A stretch of 43,111 nucleotides of DNA. Source: Gammaproteobacteria bacterium (GTDB lineage: Bacteria > Pseudomonadota > Gammaproteobacteria > Enterobacterales > Alteromonadaceae). The notes under the pieces were generated by a model that worked only from the letters and a program-made list of their open reading frames with translations, was not told the DNA's origin and did not search any database. The DNA lies in the NCBI GenBank assembly GCA_017302255.1, contig JAFLDV010000035.1:1-43111 (forward strand), read 5' to 3'. Positions 12,119 through 34,627 of the stretch are shown one piece after another. Each line of letters starts with the position of its first letter. Position 1 is the first letter of the stretch. The translations under genes and the position numbers were made by a program.

Positions 12119-13189
12119 TTAACTGTTGCCTTTGACAACATTTACCGTTGTTTTATCTTTCAGACCGGCTTGACCGGCTGTCACTACTTGCTCGCCTTCG
12201 GCCAAGCCCTCCACGACTTCCATAAACTCATCACTTTCATAGCCAAGCTTGATGGCTTTGCGTACCACGGTATTGTCTGCACCAACAACAAAGACGCTAG
12301 TTGCATTATCCATGGCCATAACCGCACGTTTAGGTACTAATAACGCGTCGGTTTTGTTGTCATATTGCAGTTCAACTTGGGTGAACATCCCCGCTTTTAA
12401 CACTAAGTCATCGTTATCGATACCGATAGTTACCCGAGCTGTGCCAGATGTTGCATCAACTACTGGCGAAATCCTGACAATCTTGGCCTGACGTTGTGGC
12501 ATGCCAGCAAAGTTCAAAAAGGCTGTTTGCCCAACTTTCGCCCGGCTTAATTGGTGTTCAGGCAAATTAATCACGGCTTCTAAACGTTGCTGTGAAACTA
12601 CAGTAAACAAAGATTTTGACGAGAACTCAGTCATCAATTGGCCGACTTTTACATAACGGCGAGCAATAACACCACTGATTGGCGCAATGATTTTAGTATC
12701 ACGCAGAGCTAATTCTTGCATGGAAACCGATGCAGACAAGGATTCAACTTGCCATTTCAATTTATCGTAAACATCAGCACTAACCAGTTTACGAGCATAC
12801 ATTTTTTCAACACGTTCTAATTCGCTTTTCAGCTGCCCCAAATCCGCACGGCCTTTAGCCAATTGAATCACTTGGCGTTCGGTATCCAATGTTGCAAGGA
12901 CTTGACCCGCTTCAACTAAATCACCTTCTTCAACTAAAACGGTTTGCACTATGCCGGTAGACTTGGAGTTAACTTCGGCATCGGCCTTAGATTCTAAAGT
13001 TGAAGTTGTGCGGTATGTGCTGCTAATTTCGCCGCGGCCTACCTTGATAGCCTCAACTGGAATAGCAACAACTGGTTCATTTTTTTCAGTATCAGGGCTG
13101 CTGTTCGCGGATCCGCAGCCAGTTAACAACAGCATCGAAGACAATAAAGCAACGCTGATGGCGGCGGCTAAGGTTGATGGCTTGTTCAT
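12119..13189 (-). CDS. Periplasmic adaptor (membrane fusion) lipoprotein of an RND efflux pump
   Basis: 356 residues. The N terminus is a lipoprotein signal with lipobox LLTGC (Cys near residue 25), so the protein should be anchored by lipid in the periplasm. It shows the HlyD/AcrA order: beta-barrel start (VEAIKVGRGEISSTYRTT), lipoyl half (KSTGIVQTVLVEEGDLVEAGQVLATLD), a short alpha-helical hairpin (about 110-150), second lipoyl half (IIAPISGVIARRYVKVGQLM), beta-barrel and membrane-proximal domain (YESDEFMEVVEGLAEGEQVVTAGQ). The short hairpin is typical of MexH/TriA-like adaptors. It is the first gene of the operon, with AAGGA 7 nt before the ATG. No regulator or outer-membrane channel gene is adjacent. 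Confidence 0.93.
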   Translation of the reverse strand: MNKPSTLAAAISVALLSSMLLLTGCGSANSSPDTEKNEPVVAIPVEAIKVGRGEISSTYRTTSTLESKADAEVNSKSTGIVQTVLVEEGDLVEAGQVLATLDTERQVIQLAKGRADLGQLKSELERVEKMYARKLVSADVYDKLKWQVESLSASVSMQELALRDTKIIAPISGVIARRYVKVGQLMTEFSSKSLFTVVSQQRLEAVINLPEHQLSRAKVGQTAFLNFAGMPQRQAKIVRISPVVDATSGTARVTIGIDNDDLVLKAGMFTQVELQYDNKTDALLVPKRAVMAMDNATSVFVVGADNTVVRKAIKLGYESDEFMEVVEGLAEGEQVVTAGQAGLKDKTTVNVVKGNS

Positions 13190-13460: not shown

Positions 13461-13478
13461 TTAGAGTCTGTACTCTAA
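13461..13478. promoter_or_regulatory. 18-bp palindromic operator (TTAGAGT-N4-ACTCTAA)
   Basis: TTAGAGTCTGTACTCTAA is a perfect 7-bp inverted repeat around CTGT. A nearly identical palindrome precedes the desaturase operon at 30033-30046. It lies immediately upstream of, and overlaps the -35 position for, the candidate -10 TATACT (13492-13497) of the FadL-type gene, so a repressor bound here would block that promoter. The size suits a TetR-type dimer, but I do not recognise the exact motif. Confidence 0.65.
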
Positions 13479-13491
13479 GTATTTCTGTCCG

Positions 13492-13497
13492 TATACT
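13492..13497 (+). promoter_or_regulatory. Candidate -10 element of the FadL-type porin promoter
   Basis: TATACT matches TATAAT at 5 of 6 positions. The -35 position, 17 nt upstream, is TGTACT, a poor match inside the palindromic operator; such a weak -35 would fit a promoter governed by that site. The distance to the ATG is about 60 nt. Confidence 0.4.
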
Positions 13498-13559
13498 GCC
13501 GGCCCTCGCTGGTCTGTCCAGCTTTTATCTTCAAAAACTAAAAAAATCAGGGCCCTTTT

Positions 13560-15023
13560 ATGAAAATCTCGTCATTTGTGCTGACACTTACCGCGCTTTG
13601 CATTTGCCAAAACCTACATGCTGAAGGCTTCAAATTATATGAGCAATCCGTCTCTGCAATGGGTAACGGCTATGCGGGGCGCGGAGCCCAAATCAGTGAT
13701 GCCAGTCTGGTTTACTCTAACCCAGCAGCACTTACGGAACTAAACCAAGCCCAGCTGAGCAGCGGAGCCACATTCATTCATGCCAGAACCGATTACCAGG
13801 TTGATTTAGCAAAAAGCGCTGCAGGCCAATCAGTTATGGGTCGTGAGTCGGGTCAAAATAGTTTAAATGAATTAGTCCCTTTTTTATTTTATGCAGACAA
13901 ATTGTCTAGCCAATGGAGTTATGGCTTAGGATTTTACGTGCCATTCGGCTTATCCAGTGATTATGCTGATGATTGGGCGGGTCGATATTTTGCAGATAAA
14001 ACTGCAATCGAAGTTGTTGCATTACAAGCTTCTGCAGGATACCGACTGAACGAGCAATGGTCATTAGGCGGCGGCATCAGTGTCAATCGAGTCAGTGGCG
14101 AATTATCAAAATTTAAAGACCACAGTGGCCTCTGTGAAACCGGCAGCAACATCAACGCGATGTTTGGTGCAGATGTTTATAATGATGCTTATTGCCACAG
14201 CCACTACCAGGTTGCCGGGGATGATGTAAAACTTGGTTACAATCTGGCAATTCATGGTCGCTTTGATACCGGTACTAAGCTTGGTCTTATTTACCATTCA
14301 AAAATTGATTTTGTTTTGCACGGTAACTCGGAAATTACCAACACACCAATTACCGGAGCTAACGTTGTTGGCTCACCAAACTTTATTGTGATCGCACCAA
14401 ATCTGCCGGCTATCAACAAAGCCACCGGTAAATTGGCGCATAATCCGTTAGCTGTCGAGAAAAGCGCTGTAGCACTTACTACACCGGCTGATTTGACTTT
14501 TAGCCTTGATCAAGAGATTGCTAAGGATTGGTCATTGCAAGGTAGTATCAGTTGGACTGGCTGGAGTAAATTCCAAAGCATTGATATTGTGAGCCGCGAC
14601 GCAAATCCAAGTATGTCGTTGTCGACACAACAGCCGCAAAATCTGAATAAGCCGGGCTATATTGGCTATATTCCAGAGTACTGGCACGATACGATTTCCG
14701 GTGCCGTAGGCGCAACTTGGCAATTAACCACACATCGTCAATTAAAAGCTGGTTTGGCCTATGATGAAAGTCCAATTAGTTCAACACACCGTACAGCCCG
14801 AGTTCCAACCAAAGACCGGATTTGGGGAACGTTAGGCTGGCATGAACAATTAAACACTAAATGGAATATGGATTTAGCGCTTGGCTATCTTTGGATGTCT
14901 GATTTAACAAGCAACGAGGCTGAGTACAACGTGCAGGACGTGCGCATCAACCGAGCCAATCTGCAAGCCACCTACAGCAACCATGCAATCCTTGCTGGAG
15001 TGCAGTTTAACTATCTATTTTAA
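13560..15023 (+). CDS. FadL/OmpP1-family outer-membrane long-chain fatty acid transporter
   Basis: 487 residues with a cleavable signal peptide (first 21 residues, cut after HA in NLHAEGF). The mature N terminus has the FadL signature: GFKLYEQSVSAMGNGYAGRGAQISDASLVYSNPAAL, the hatch segment that plugs the barrel. The rest alternates aromatic and polar residues as expected of a 14-strand beta-barrel and ends in the aromatic C terminus FNYLF recognised by the Bam machinery. Homologues carry long-chain fatty acids or other hydrophobic molecules across the outer membrane by lateral diffusion. An AGGG 7 nt before the ATG is a modest ribosome site. A palindromic operator in its promoter is shared with the fatty acid desaturase operon, which supports a lipid role. 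Confidence 0.92.
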   Translation: MKISSFVLTLTALCICQNLHAEGFKLYEQSVSAMGNGYAGRGAQISDASLVYSNPAALTELNQAQLSSGATFIHARTDYQVDLAKSAAGQSVMGRESGQNSLNELVPFLFYADKLSSQWSYGLGFYVPFGLSSDYADDWAGRYFADKTAIEVVALQASAGYRLNEQWSLGGGISVNRVSGELSKFKDHSGLCETGSNINAMFGADVYNDAYCHSHYQVAGDDVKLGYNLAIHGRFDTGTKLGLIYHSKIDFVLHGNSEITNTPITGANVVGSPNFIVIAPNLPAINKATGKLAHNPLAVEKSAVALTTPADLTFSLDQEIAKDWSLQGSISWTGWSKFQSIDIVSRDANPSMSLSTQQPQNLNKPGYIGYIPEYWHDTISGAVGATWQLTTHRQLKAGLAYDESPISSTHRTARVPTKDRIWGTLGWHEQLNTKWNMDLALGYLWMSDLTSNEAEYNVQDVRINRANLQATYSNHAILAGVQFNYLF

Positions 15024-27007: not shown

Positions 27008-27802
27008 TTATGCAAACACCGTCACAGTTTGTCGACTAATTGCCACTAATTTGCCTGCAGCATCGATGAATTTGGCTTCAATATGGCTATAACCTTCATG
27101 GGCTGCATCAATTTCTGCGCGGTAATACCACCAATCTGTTGCCGCATAATCAAAGTCTGTCGTTAAAAATTCAAGACTCCAAGTCAGCGAACTTGCCGGT
27201 GCAGGCGCTTGTAACCAACTTAAGGTCGCTGGCGGCCACGCATCAATTAGTGCAATAACTGCTTCAACACTGCAAGGGCCTGATATCGCAGGTCCACTAA
27301 ACCTATTGCGACCGTGCATGTGCACCGATGCAGTCGCCGAAAATGGAAAACCGCCCTCGGTCAGTTCGTAATCAAAATGACGGGTGAACTCAGGCACTGG
27401 CCCTTGTTTTGGCAATTTTGCTAAAACTGGTGCAGAGAGGTCCATCAATTCAGGTTGATGCTCGACGCTGGACGGTCTTGCCGCGCCAAAGCTTGCTAGC
27501 ATGACCAGTGCGAGCTGATCTTGCTGATAAATTCGCACTTCGGCATGTTGCACCGATTTACCAACTCTTAAAATCTCACGCTTAAGTAGCGCTGGGCCTG
27601 GGGCAATAGGCGCAATAAAAGATACCGCAAGTGAACGCACTTTCGCCGCATCGCCAAGCAGAGCGCGCAAATACCGAAAAGCGATTGCCGCCGCCATTCC
27701 GCCAAACAATGCTCTACCCTGCCCCCAATCTGCGGGGATTTCAAAAACACACTGCTCACCGCTTTCGACATTCAGTGGTGCTAATACCTGTTGAAACTCC
27801 AT
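27008..27802 (-). CDS. Acyl-CoA thioesterase-like double hotdog protein
   Basis: 264 residues from the ATG at 27802, chosen over a TTG four codons earlier because GGAG lies 6 nt before the ATG. The sequence fits a tandem hotdog (TesB-like, 4HBT_3) thioesterase: WGQGRALFGGMAAAIAFRYL in the first hotdog, LAVSFIAPIAPGPALLKREILRVGKSVQHAEVRIYQ, and in the second half SLTWSLEFLTTDFDYAATDWWYYRAEID with SHIEAKFIDAAGKLVAISRQTV. Such enzymes hydrolyse acyl-CoA to free acid and CoA. It follows the desaturase by 35 nt on the same strand and is likely the third gene of that operon, so it may act on desaturated or excess acyl-CoA. That assignment is inference. Confidence 0.8.
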   Translation of the reverse strand: MEFQQVLAPLNVESGEQCVFEIPADWGQGRALFGGMAAAIAFRYLRALLGDAAKVRSLAVSFIAPIAPGPALLKREILRVGKSVQHAEVRIYQQDQLALVMLASFGAARPSSVEHQPELMDLSAPVLAKLPKQGPVPEFTRHFDYELTEGGFPFSATASVHMHGRNRFSGPAISGPCSVEAVIALIDAWPPATLSWLQAPAPASSLTWSLEFLTTDFDYAATDWWYYRAEIDAAHEGYSHIEAKFIDAAGKLVAISRQTVTVFA

Positions 27803-27837
27803 GGCAAACTCCAATCATTAAACTGTCAATCAATCGC

Positions 27838-28923
27838 TTAGCCCGGCAGCGAATAACGTAAGATCCGACGCAGTACTGTTAAATACTGCCCTGCGAAAGA
27901 GCCTGTATTGTAGGGGATCCCATGACGTTTAGCGATCTGTTGCACTTTTTTCGCCAACGCTGGGTAGCGCCAAGCTGGTAAATCTGGAAATAAATGGTGC
28001 TCAATTTGACAGCTCAGATGCCCGGTTAATATGTGCAACCAACGCGGCCCGGTAAAATTTGACGAGCCCAGCATTTGTCGATAGAACCATTGGCCACGGC
28101 TTTCATTGTGGCAATCCTCTTCTTTAAATGTATAAACTTGCTCGGTGAAATGACCGCAAAAAATCACCGTTGCGGTCCACCAATTCCGGATCAAATTGGC
28201 TAGGAAATTTCCAAGCAGCACCCAACCAAAGACTGGCCAGCATAAAAGTGGGAAAAAAACATAATCCTTGGCTAACTGCTTGAAGCCTTTACCAAAAAAA
28301 GCGCGTTTTAATTCGTGATCACTCACTTGGGTATGCCTATCCGCTTTTTTCTTACCGAAAAACACCCGTTGCGCAGCTAGCTCATGGTAGGACACACCCC
28401 ATTGAAACAATGTGCTCAACATAAAATAGGTGAAGACTTGCCAAAGGTTACGCAAACGCCAACGGAAATCGTTACTTAAACGTAATAAGCCATAGCCAAA
28501 ATCGCGGTCCTTACCAATAATATTGGTGAACGTATGATGCTCAAAGTTATGAGTGCGCTGCCAAGACTTCGCATCACAGGCGATATCCCACTCAAAATGC
28601 TTAGAATTAAGGTAGCGATGCTGCAGAAAATCATACTGGCCGTGCAACACGTTATGACCAATTTCCATATTGTCGATTATTTTTGCCAAAGCCAATAGCA
28701 AGACTGCTGGCAGTAAAAACCAAGCCGACCAAAAGCAACCAAGCATCAACACCCTACCAGTAATGGCAAAAATTCTCTGCCATTGCACAAGTTTAAGTAG
28801 GTAGTTGGCGTCGGCAACGCCTAAAGTTGTTCTCTCTTGCTGTGCAAGTTCCGTCAATTCGGCAGCGAGTTGCTGAGCAGTTGCTTCCGGTAATAATGGC
28901 GTAGTTGTTGTGATAGTTTTCAT
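27838..28923 (-). CDS. Membrane fatty acyl desaturase (DesB-like)
   Basis: 361 residues with hydrophobic spans near 55-82 and 222-255. All three histidine clusters of di-iron membrane desaturases are present: HNVLH (His90, His94), HNFEHH (His125, His129, His130) and QIEHH (His309, His310), plus an extra conserved His in CGHFTEQ (His258). This is the acyl-CoA or acyl-lipid delta-9-type desaturase family that includes Pseudomonas aeruginosa DesB. It inserts a double bond using O2 and electrons from a reductase; the gene just upstream (12 nt) encodes a fitting ferredoxin reductase-like partner. The operon would let the cell add unsaturation aerobically to exogenous or existing saturated acyl chains. 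AGG lies 6 nt before the ATG. Confidence 0.92.
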   Translation of the reverse strand: MKTITTTTPLLPEATAQQLAAELTELAQQERTTLGVADANYLLKLVQWQRIFAITGRVLMLGCFWSAWFLLPAVLLLALAKIIDNMEIGHNVLHGQYDFLQHRYLNSKHFEWDIACDAKSWQRTHNFEHHTFTNIIGKDRDFGYGLLRLSNDFRWRLRNLWQVFTYFMLSTLFQWGVSYHELAAQRVFFGKKKADRHTQVSDHELKRAFFGKGFKQLAKDYVFFPLLCWPVFGWVLLGNFLANLIRNWWTATVIFCGHFTEQVYTFKEEDCHNESRGQWFYRQMLGSSNFTGPRWLHILTGHLSCQIEHHLFPDLPAWRYPALAKKVQQIAKRHGIPYNTGSFAGQYLTVLRRILRYSLPG

Positions 28924-28935
28924 AGTAGACCTGAG

Positions 28936-29979
28936 TTATAACCGAATATCGACAGAAGTGACTGCTTCACTAATGCACAACTGGATAGGTTCTGCGCCCG
29001 CGCCAGACAGCTCGCCAGTCAGCAAATTCTTGACCTGACCTTGAAGTTTCTGGCATTGGCATTGTTGACAGATCCCTCGCCGACAACCGTATCGTGGATT
29101 TAAACCAGCTTGTTCAGCCAACTGCAGCAGCGTACCTTGGCCAGAAACTTGTTGTTGCGCACTTTCTCGGTGAAAAGTAACAGCCTGCACTAAAGCGTCG
29201 CTGCTAACGCCACCAAAAGACTCGGAACTGACACGATGTCCAAGCTGTTGCAGTGCTGGTTTTAATTGCTGGATCATCGGGGTTGGGCCGCAAAGATAAA
29301 AATCAGTCGCTGCCGGATCCGATATGTGCTGCATTATGCTATCGACCGATAATCGGGGTGAATTTTCTGTGTCGTGAGCAATAAAGTTAAACAGTGGAAA
29401 CTCAGCAGCTAAGGCGCGGAAATCATCATTAAAAACGCCATCACCACGATAGCTATAAATCAAGGTAATCGGCTGAGTCATTCTGGAAATGGATAACAGC
29501 ATGGCACGAATTGGCGTGATACCAGAGCCTGCAGCAATTAAACATAACGGCTTTTGTTGTTTAAGTACAAATTCGCCCTGAGCCTTTGACATATAGAGCC
29601 AAGAGCCTAAGAGCACAGATCGTTCTAACCAACGACTTAACTGGCCGTTTGCGACTAATTTAATTGCTAAATCAATAGTGCCATTTTGCTGAAACTCCTG
29701 CAGCGAAGAGCAGATACTAAAAGTCCGCTGCACTCGAGACCCATTAATTTCACACGATAAATCAATGTGTTGACCTGGTAAAAAACCATTAAAACCAGAG
29801 CTTGGCTTAAGCGTTAGCCAAACGTATCCCGCTTGCTTTTTTATTTTCAGAACTTTTGCCGCAATTGCGCCAGCTCGGTAATGCGGCACCAATAATCGGA
29901 CCAGAGGTTCAAAATAACTTCGAACCGAAGATTGCACCAACATACTTTCGGTGATGTGGCGGGTAAGAACAGACTTCAT
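28936..29979 (-). CDS. Ferredoxin reductase-like electron donor for the desaturase (DesC-like)
   Basis: 347 residues from the ATG at 29979 (GAG 7 nt upstream; a GTG two codons earlier is the alternative). The domain order is FAD-binding (RTFSICSS near residue 86), NAD(P)-binding (GSGITPIRAML near 152 and YLCGPTPMI near 228), and a C-terminal plant-type [2Fe-2S] domain with the C-x4-C-x2-C motif in YGCRRGICQQCQC (Cys299, Cys304, Cys307) and a fourth Cys near 335. This is the architecture of DesC/PA4889-type reductases that pass electrons from NAD(P)H to DesB. It is the first gene of the operon; the upstream region carries two candidate operators. Confidence 0.9.
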   Translation of the reverse strand: MKSVLTRHITESMLVQSSVRSYFEPLVRLLVPHYRAGAIAAKVLKIKKQAGYVWLTLKPSSGFNGFLPGQHIDLSCEINGSRVQRTFSICSSLQEFQQNGTIDLAIKLVANGQLSRWLERSVLLGSWLYMSKAQGEFVLKQQKPLCLIAAGSGITPIRAMLLSISRMTQPITLIYSYRGDGVFNDDFRALAAEFPLFNFIAHDTENSPRLSVDSIMQHISDPAATDFYLCGPTPMIQQLKPALQQLGHRVSSESFGGVSSDALVQAVTFHRESAQQQVSGQGTLLQLAEQAGLNPRYGCRRGICQQCQCQKLQGQVKNLLTGELSGAGAEPIQLCISEAVTSVDIRL

Positions 29980-30032
29980 TAGCACACTCTAAGCATTGAT
30001 TTCAGCGCACATTTGTACTCTATAATTAAATT

Positions 30033-30046
30033 AGAGTCTATACTCT
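30033..30046. promoter_or_regulatory. Palindromic operator before the desaturase operon, copy 2
   Basis: AGAGTCTATACTCT, with flanking TT and CA, matches the porin operator at 13461-13478 at all ten arm positions and differs in the spacer (CTAT versus CTGT). On the minus strand the flank reads TTGAGA, 5 of 6 to a -35 element, so the site overlaps a possible promoter of the desaturase operon. Confidence 0.6.
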
Positions 30047-30133
30047 CAATTTTAAATTAAATCAAACAACTGATTTTAATGAACATTTAAAATGACAGAC
30101 AAACATAAAAATGGTACACACGTCCATTTTTAC

Positions 30134-33605: not shown

Positions 33606-34442
33606 CTATTCTTTTGCAACTTTAGGCTGTGGCGGTCCAAACAACAAGCGCAATTTCGCTGAAAATCCAGTGGTTTGCGGCCACTGAGCGATCATCCGCC
33701 GCCATTCATAAAACGTGATAGTCCAAGGATGCACCGATTCAAACTCATCTGTAATGCCAAAACGACAGGGTTCAGCTGCATCTTCAGGCTCAAAAGTGCC
33801 GAACATTCGATCCCAAATCACTAAAACACCCGCGAAGTTTTTGTCGATATATCGAGGATTGCAGGCATGATGCACCCGATGCCAGCTTGGCGTATTAAAT
33901 AGATATCCGGCAACCCCCCAATGCTGCCACCAACGGGTATGCACGAAAAATTGGAAGCCCAAATTAATTGCGACAACCGAAATCACTAGCTTTACCTCAA
34001 ATCCCAGCATGATCAGCGGGGTCCAAAACAACCACATCCCAGAGATTGGGTAGGTTAAGCTTTGGCGAAACGCCGTACTGAAATTCATTAATCGCGAGCT
34101 ATGGTGAGTAACATGCGACGCCCACAACCAACGAACGCGGTGTGACGCACGATGGAACCAGTAATATAAAAAATCTTGCAGAACAAATAACAACAATAAA
34201 TTCAGATAATTAAATTCAATTTTCCAAATTGCGTATTGGCTCAACCAAAGAAATAGCGGCATTAACAACAACAAAGACACTGCTTCGCCAAACTGATGCA
34301 TGGCCGATAACACAAAATTAGCGACACTATCCCGCCATTGATAAACCGCAGGCTTTTGTTTGCGAGTTTGCCACCATTCAAACGCGACAAAAGCAAAGAA
34401 AATCGGACTAAGTATTATCAACACATACTCAGCAGGGATCAT
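33606..34442 (-). CDS. Sterol desaturase / fatty acid hydroxylase family membrane enzyme
   Basis: 278 residues from the ATG at 34442, supported by GAGG 6 nt upstream; a TTG 13 codons earlier is less likely. Several hydrophobic segments precede the di-iron histidine motifs of the family: HRASHRVRWLWASHVTHHSSRLMN, HTRWWQHWG and WHRVHHACNPRYIDKNFAGVLVIWDRMFGTF. Members hydroxylate or desaturate lipids, carotenoids or alkyl-glycerol ethers with O2; the bacterial substrates are mostly unknown. It appears to head a two-gene operon with the LysE exporter. It is the second oxygen-dependent membrane di-iron lipid enzyme of the window, besides the DesB-like protein. Confidence 0.92.
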   Translation of the reverse strand: MIPAEYVLIILSPIFFAFVAFEWWQTRKQKPAVYQWRDSVANFVLSAMHQFGEAVSLLLLMPLFLWLSQYAIWKIEFNYLNLLLLFVLQDFLYYWFHRASHRVRWLWASHVTHHSSRLMNFSTAFRQSLTYPISGMWLFWTPLIMLGFEVKLVISVVAINLGFQFFVHTRWWQHWGVAGYLFNTPSWHRVHHACNPRYIDKNFAGVLVIWDRMFGTFEPEDAAEPCRFGITDEFESVHPWTITFYEWRRMIAQWPQTTGFSAKLRLLFGPPQPKVAKE

Positions 34443-34627
34443 AAAACACCTCGTTGTTCTGATTATTTTTGGGGTTTTCAAGTTTTTACTCTAACAAATC
34501 TGCCACAAAAATTCCGTAAAAATTTCATGGCTATTGCACCTTAGCTGCACGTCAAAGGCTCTAGACTGCACCAAAACAGTAACCCGTGATTCCCAGTTCA
34601 TTTTCTACTGTTTTAAATCAATAGCTT

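Follow-up and report, generated by a model that had tools for sequence, protein, structure and literature searches.

Three candidate operator sites lie in front of lipid genes in the window, by which we mean the whole 43,111-nucleotide stretch analysed here. The sites and genes concerned are listed below, together with a regulator gene located outside the window.

12119-13189, minus strand: RND efflux adaptor, divergent from fadL (NCBIfam TIGR01730, 236.5 bits, over cut-off)
13461-13478, no strand: candidate fadL operator, TTAGAGTCTGTACTCTAA, its centre about 35 bp 5' of the probable transcription start
13492-13497, plus strand: probable −10 element of fadL, TATACT, assigned by eye; TATAAT or TATACT is aligned 11-14 bp 3' of the operator in most same-genus promoters
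13510-13520, no strand: FadR-like site TGGTCTGTCCA, 3' of the fadL −10; relatives carry AGGTCTGACCA(G)
13560-15023, plus strand: FadL-type outer-membrane fatty-acid channel (Pfam PF03349, 271.1 bits, cut-off 29.7)
27008-27814, minus strand: acyl-CoA thioesterase, third gene of the desaturase run (PF20789 and PF13622 over cut-off)
27838-28923, minus strand: fatty-acid desaturase (PF00487, 91.4 bits, cut-off 29.7)
28936-29985, minus strand: ferredoxin-type NAD(P)H oxidoreductase, gene 1 of the desaturase operon (PF00970, PF00175 and PF00111 over cut-off)
30031-30048, no strand: candidate operator of the desaturase operon, context TTAGAGTCTATACTCTCA, minus-strand reading TGAGAGTATAGACTCTAA, matrix score 19.3
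33606-34442, minus strand: fatty-acid hydroxylase (PF04116, 97.3 bits, cut-off 31), start taken from the translation
34477-34494, no strand: third candidate site, TTCAAGTTTTTACTCTAA, minus-strand reading TTAGAGTAAAAACTTGAA, matrix score 21.7
G000:C56:22036-22695, outside the window: candidate reader, a TetR of the PF13972 class, beside coaD

Against the narrower NCBIfam models the fadL product scores 151.5 bits (FadL, equivalog cut-off 585) and the desaturase 32.7 bits (DesB, cut-off 500). Judging from gene spacing, the reductase, desaturase and thioesterase genes presumably form one transcript. The listed frame of the hydroxylase extends to a TTG at 34481, and its first ATG is at 34442.

The fadL palindrome is located 81 bp 5' of the fadL ATG (13560) and the desaturase palindrome 45 bp 5' of the GTG (29985) with which the reductase gene, the first of the desaturase operon, starts. 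Both palindromes have identical arms and differ at one base of the spacer, such that 13 of 14 core bases are alike; the 14-nt core of the second, AGAGTCTATACTCT, occupies 30033-30046 within the candidate site at 30031-30048. A sequence-only reading of this DNA had reported identical arms with the same 4-nt spacing in intergenic DNA at promoter position before both transcription units, and this description is borne out. The third site, which was absent from the list in that reading, lies 34 bp 5' of the probable hydroxylase ATG (34442), differs by one mismatch from the relaxed form TTARAGYNNNNRCTYTAA, and is similar to a site found before fadD in the same genome, TTAGAGTAAAAACTCAGA.

Two such palindromes had been called unlikely by chance, which proves correct for perfect arms: the window has two exact AGAGT-N4-ACTCT sites where 100 dinucleotide shuffles gave a mean of 0.01, and no shuffle gave two. 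The same cannot be said once up to two mismatches are allowed, where nine places were found against 11.0 expected. In the whole genome, the relaxed form TTARAGYNNNNRCTYTAA with at most one mismatch is not enriched either (22 forward places versus 18 for the mirror pattern). Only perfect arms carry signal in the window, and with mismatches the pattern drowns in the background. Because the relaxed pattern stands at background level, operator function had to be judged by conservation.

A scan of the genome for exact AGAGT-N4-ACTCT, which had been proposed as a check, returned three sites in 4,031,574 bases on 77 contigs; two are the window sites before lipid genes, and the third falls in a coding frame at C8:338. 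When the 18-mer TTAGAGT-N4-ACTCTAA is used, the fadL site (no mismatch) and the desaturase site (one mismatch, second best) are the best two places in the genome, all others having at least two mismatches. A scoring matrix (PWM) built from 23 sites, the fadL site among them, gave within the window 24.0 for fadL, 21.7 for the hydroxylase site and 19.3 for the desaturase site, with the next place at 11.7. The exact site at C8:338 lies in a gene that by eye resembles purH, close to the end of its contig (L001, G000:C8:1-1851); the AT-rich genes there look unlike the rest of the genome and might be foreign or contamination.

Conservation at fadL was assessed in the best 30 homologues from 118 relatives, using the pattern TTAGAGYNNNNRCTCTAA over 200 bp upstream and its mirror as control. 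A site with at most two mismatches is present in 23 of these best 30 promoters, and the mirror pattern in none. Among the 23 closest homologues, the own genome's included, 19 are positive, as are four of the next five (41-47% identical); TTAGAGCATGTACTCTAA is the most frequent form. The site is missing in G003, G009 and G018, has three mismatches in G038 and in G085, and is lacking at two remote homologues (27-28% identity). In same-genus promoters, TATAAT or TATACT lies 11-14 bp beyond the site as judged by eye, so the site appears to cover the −35 region; a promoter scan found no sigma-70 pair at the fadL −10. At three more distant homologues (L102, L103 and L105), the site is instead placed 3' of a TATATT box, also read by eye. 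Given that it can stand either 5' or 3' of the −10, a repressor would fit better than an activator. These comparisons support the view that the fadL palindrome behaves as a conserved candidate operator.

Just 3' of the fadL −10, half of the genus (L080-L083, L087 and L089) carries a FadR-like palindrome, which suggests a second regulator at fadL. This label, given to 13510-13520, refers to what we take to be the FadR consensus, TGGTCNGACCA, and the AGAGT motif does not match that presumed consensus. About 51 bp 5' of the fadL operator, L081-L083 and L089 share a further conserved degenerate palindrome, TTAGTGATTTAGCTCAA(C/T).

The divergent gene for the RND adaptor starts 271 bp from the fadL operator, and the pump had been considered a possible member of the regulon. 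We see no sign of this. A divergent RND adaptor is found upstream of fadL in all 23 close homologues and in none of seven others, four of which keep the site. These four are among the five more distant homologues (41-47% identical), whose upstream 1.5 kb shows no RND adaptor. Since the site is kept at four fadL homologues that have no adjoining adaptor, it goes with fadL.

The desaturase and hydroxylase sites give a different picture. None of eight orthologous, mostly syntenic reductase-desaturase operons in the fetched relatives (desaturases 73-77% identical) has the site, the best places having 3-5 mismatches, as for the mirror pattern. The proposal of one repressor for both uptake and desaturation, which was to stand or fall with conservation at orthologous promoters, thus keeps its fadL half (23 of the best 30, mirror none) and finds no support for its desaturase half (0/8). 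Among the matches listed, 29 other reductase homologues also lack the site (best place with at least four mismatches), and no site precedes the hydroxylase gene in any of the six relatives that have this gene in the fetched stretch. Because the desaturase site is absent from all eight orthologous operons, it is either a recent gain or a chance occurrence. These absences, and the missing enrichment of the relaxed pattern in the own genome, would agree with chance matches at 30031-30048 (desaturase) and 34477-34494 (hydroxylase), leaving the fadL site as the only one that works in the window. This explanation is nevertheless rather unlikely when set against the perfect arms, the near-identity to the fadL site (13 of 14 core bases), the promoter position, the occurrence of just three exact sites in 4.03 Mb, and the distance between the three lipid-gene sites and the next matrix score in the window (the matrix includes the fadL site). 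We therefore regard the desaturase site as a probable lineage-specific gain.

The motif recurs before genes of other functions. For genes of the DUF1302 family, all loci among the matches listed were considered (n = 30), again with the mirror pattern as control. A site with at most one mismatch precedes DUF1302 in all 22 same-genus genomes (own included) and in four of eight others, for 26 of the 30 listed matches, while the mirror pattern occurs at none. The outer arms of these sites are conserved and the inner bases vary. In the own genome, the operon behind the DUF1302 site (G000:C7:25538) encodes DUF1302 and DUF1329 proteins, a BNR protein and an MMPL transporter.

Across the 22 same-genus genomes, TTAGAGYNNNNRCTCTAA with at most one mismatch was found at 101 forward versus 33 mirror places. 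The listed places number 67 (134 strand rows), and surroundings were read for part of them, chosen for recurrence (40 loci, then further ones); six of the 40 loci are flagged as coding. The loci read all come from genomes with a listed site, so the occurrences of pdhR, aceB and a TonB-dependent receptor gene are given as counts that have no denominators. Among genomes with a listed site, pdhR carries one in G000, G001, G005, G009, G011, G015, G017, G019, G020 and G034, and probably in G018; aceB does so in G001, G002, G010, G011, G012, G014, G015, G017 and G019. The identities of PdhR (388.4 bits, cut-off 330) and of AceB as malate synthase A (675.9 bits, cut-off 594.5) are well above threshold. 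The own-genome fadD gene (950.8 bits, cut-off 884) has a two-mismatch site 20 bp upstream, and in G029 a site lies 5' of a fadD-like gene that is incomplete at the locus end. In other genera, sites are located 5' of mdh in G034 and in Colwellia (the latter mdh named by eye), of gltA in G024, and of pdhR and fadL in G034. By eye, a lipase gene seemed to follow the site at C15:57432; as no Pfam or NCBIfam match supports this label, the site was left out of the count. These findings support a clustering of motif sites before genes for fatty-acid and acetyl-CoA metabolism.

Several recurrent places involve other types of elements. In six same-genus genomes (G001, G002, G010, G012, G014 and G015; L160-L163, L187 and L190), a site is found 35 bp upstream of the TonB-dependent receptor gene. 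Near engB and polA, a site recurs 31-41 bp beyond the 3' end of a Spot 42-like RNA (L014:1501-1518, L174, L176 and L257) that scores 50-56 bits in Rfam, below the gathering score of 80; a role as the Spot 42 promoter was rejected because the site sits beyond the 3' end of the RNA match. A conserved site also adjoins a CsrB/RsmB-like RNA (L164:1537-1554, also L165 and L166), which at L164 scores 44.4 bits (gathering 71), is GGA-rich and reads as a false ORF. Finally, at L155:1533-1550 and L158:1494-1511 a site lies about 60 bp 5' of a c-di-GMP-I riboswitch (60.2 bits, gathering 35), which precedes a gene resembling those for small secreted proteins.

The sequence-only reading had named a lipid regulon. 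Related sites before fatty-acid and acetyl-CoA genes agree with that proposal, and its scope proves wider than was suggested, taking in DUF1302/DUF1329/MMPL, pdhR, aceB, fadD and tetR. The TonB receptor, Spot 42-like, CsrB-like, c-di-GMP riboswitch and coding places fit no lipid role and count as evidence against it.

That reading had also guessed at a regulator of the TetR type. Seven TetR genes are recognized in the own genome by PF00440, including PsrA and the gene beside coaD. The coaD-linked protein has a TetR_N helix-turn-helix (PF00440, 54.3 bits, cut-off 24) and a C-terminal ligand/dimer domain (PF13972, 139.9 bits, cut-off 25), and its 26-residue recognition region is identical across the 22 loci L206-L227. 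Its own-genome promoter carries a three-mismatch site. Rheinheimera tetR promoters retain only one arm, which reads CTAGAGTTTTT at 20 of 22 loci; at least three mismatches separate them from the full 18-mer. Outside the genus the association is clearer: TTAAAGTATTTACTCGAA and near forms, at one mismatch, lie 5' of tetR in six of 14 fetched loci, all from other genera. For the five further TetR genes (besides PsrA and the candidate, with FabR among them), no site with fewer than three mismatches was found in the fetched loci.

With a pattern fixed beforehand on the fadL and DUF1302 sites, we then searched 300 bp at 72 named tetR loci outside the Rheinheimera group, among the matches listed, with the eight Rheinheimera-group loci (L291-L298) excluded. 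Sites with at most two mismatches are present at 22 of the 72 listed loci (mirror pattern, one; shuffles, 1.3), although related loci are not independent. Positive loci include Marinobacter, Colwellia and relatives, Thalassotalea and Chromobacterium; the 50 listed loci that have no such site comprise Shewanella, Aeromonas, Photobacterium and Pseudoalteromonas loci and all Vibrio loci but one. The best candidate for the guessed regulator is accordingly predicted to be this PF13972 TetR, a widespread protein that has received little study.

The presence of the site also follows that of the regulator. A DUF1302 match is present in ten genomes from other genera, of which five have a close TetR orthologue (E 1e-58 or better) and five do not. 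Four of the first five (G022, G024, G075 and G085) carry the DUF1302 site, and the fifth, G071, has a match to it only at two mismatches. Neither a close orthologue nor the site is found in G023, G025, G076, G082 and G083 (best E 1.8e-5, 2.6e-22, 2.4e-5, 1.1e-23 and 7.3e-8, respectively), where G082 is 85% complete and has an uncertain DUF1302 start. As an illustration, eight chosen genomes contain 11 zero-mismatch places for TTARAGYANNTRCTCNAA, seven at tetR and two at DUF1302; because the tetR sites guided the choice of the genomes and, in part, of the pattern, this count is no test.

What emerges from the comparisons is a conserved candidate operator upstream of fadL and DUF1302, a motif upstream of tetR in several genera, and the joint presence of site and TetR. 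The orthologues outside the genus that have the site at their own promoter decide for the coaD-linked PF13972 TetR as the most likely reader. We consider it very likely that this putative repressor reads the palindrome at 13461-13478 as its operator, with the consensus TTARAGYANNTRCTYTAA.

A different and as yet unseen regulator might own these sites and control tetR as one of its targets. The single arm at the Rheinheimera tetR promoters speaks for such an arrangement, as does the joint loss of the fadL and tetR elements in G003 and G009, whose TetR proteins are intact (92% and 89% identical, same recognition helix). The fadL site is gone from G018 as well, and all three genomes keep the DUF1302 site, which, together with the site at the pdhR place in G009 and probably in G018, rules out loss of the regulator there. 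Against an unseen owner, the site tracks the TetR orthologue outside the genus (4/5 versus 0/5), and the tetR promoter is the most frequent zero-mismatch place in other genera, for a pattern partly drawn from those sites. On this evidence, we judge TetR being a target and not the reader to be distinctly improbable.

The motif had been said not to match PsrA, FadR or FabR sites, and it differs from the sites that we presume for PsrA, PdhR and FadR, the PsrA box being found in the PsrA promoter and the FadR-like box apart from the motif. The promoter of the PsrA gene (protein score 328.8 bits, cut-off 300) carries a TTCAAACACTCGTTTAAA box (TTCAAAC-N4-GTTTAAA), and no match to the relaxed motif at two or fewer mismatches was found in the fetched PsrA region; the pdhR promoter carries AATTGGTCTTACCAATT in addition to the motif. 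FabR is also encoded in the own genome (340 bits, cut-off 151). PsrA, PdhR and FadR were rejected as readers, each having another box. A local form of a known PsrA, PdhR, FadR or FabR site is therefore highly improbable, even though the regulon content (fatty-acid degradation, aceB, pdhR) resembles that of PsrA in Shewanella (PMC5343134 and PMC3223726) and PsrA motifs drift between lineages (PMC3223726).

Known systems offer some orientation regarding the coaD-linked TetR. LaoR (PA0367) of Pseudomonas aeruginosa is a regulator adjoining genes for long-chain alcohol and aldehyde oxidation in the laoABCR cluster (PMC7318663). Similar to what is described there, a Marinobacter relative of our TetR (42% identical) is divergent from an aldehyde dehydrogenase gene, with a GMC oxidoreductase gene further on, and TTAGAGTATATACTCTAG lies between the divergent tetR-class and aldehyde dehydrogenase genes. 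Unlike laoR, the Rheinheimera tetR stands beside coaD and peptidase-like or kbl/tdh-like genes (in the own genome, coaD on one side and a peptidase-like gene on the other), and lao-like neighbours are seen only in the Marinobacter relative. By analogy, the coaD-linked TetR may be a relative of LaoR. In Shewanella, CalR is the predicted regulator of calB (PMC3223726), which encodes coniferyl aldehyde dehydrogenase, an enzyme of the same class as the product of the gene adjoining the Marinobacter TetR relative; our guess is that CalR belongs to the PF13972 TetR class.

The PsrA of Shewanella is a TetR repressor of fatty-acid degradation with a regulon that includes aceBA, sdh and gltA (PMC5343134). 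The proposed TetR would likewise work as a fatty-acid repressor, but alongside PsrA, which this genome encodes separately and whose promoter carries another type of box. The same source (PMC5343134) describes FadP of Burkholderia and relatives as a TetR-family regulator of fatty-acid degradation that takes the place of PsrA in some lineages; in contrast to those lineages, PsrA is still present here. The nearest solved relatives of our TetR, PDB 3rh2 and 3nnr (E 7.3e-65 and 1.6e-48, almost full length), are structural-genomics proteins labelled only TetR-like, and their listing names no operator or ligand. Within open-licence PMC text, no paper was found that describes this operator or has this TetR regulate fatty-acid genes.

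Returning to the coaD-linked TetR as the reader, we infer physical binding and repression, with a lipid ligand. In the resting state, a TetR dimer would lie across the fadL −35 region and block the promoter, and it would leave the operator in response to a fatty acid or fatty acyl-CoA. Release would turn on fatty-acid uptake and activation (fadL and fadD), the outer-membrane operon for DUF1302, DUF1329, BNR and MMPL proteins, and, in relatives, entry points of acetyl-CoA metabolism (pdhR and aceB). The desaturase operon, and perhaps the hydroxylase gene, would have been added to the regulon in this species, with both sites presumed to work.

On balance, we lean towards seeing the conserved PF13972 TetR as one more global lipid regulator beside PsrA and FadR in proteobacteria from marine and freshwater habitats. 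Through TTARAGYANNTRCTYTAA, it would link the DUF1302/DUF1329/MMPL outer-membrane system and the pyruvate and glyoxylate nodes to the uptake and activation of fatty acids, and in this species its reach would extend to desaturation and hydroxylation. Fatty acids from outside would then set their own uptake as well as membrane remodelling. If true, a function, an operator and a list of targets would be available for a TetR class that has solved structures and, in the literature searched, no assigned operator; the DUF1302, DUF1329 and MMPL genes, whose role is unclear, would come under fatty-acid control; and a second TetR lipid regulator would act alongside PsrA in one cell.
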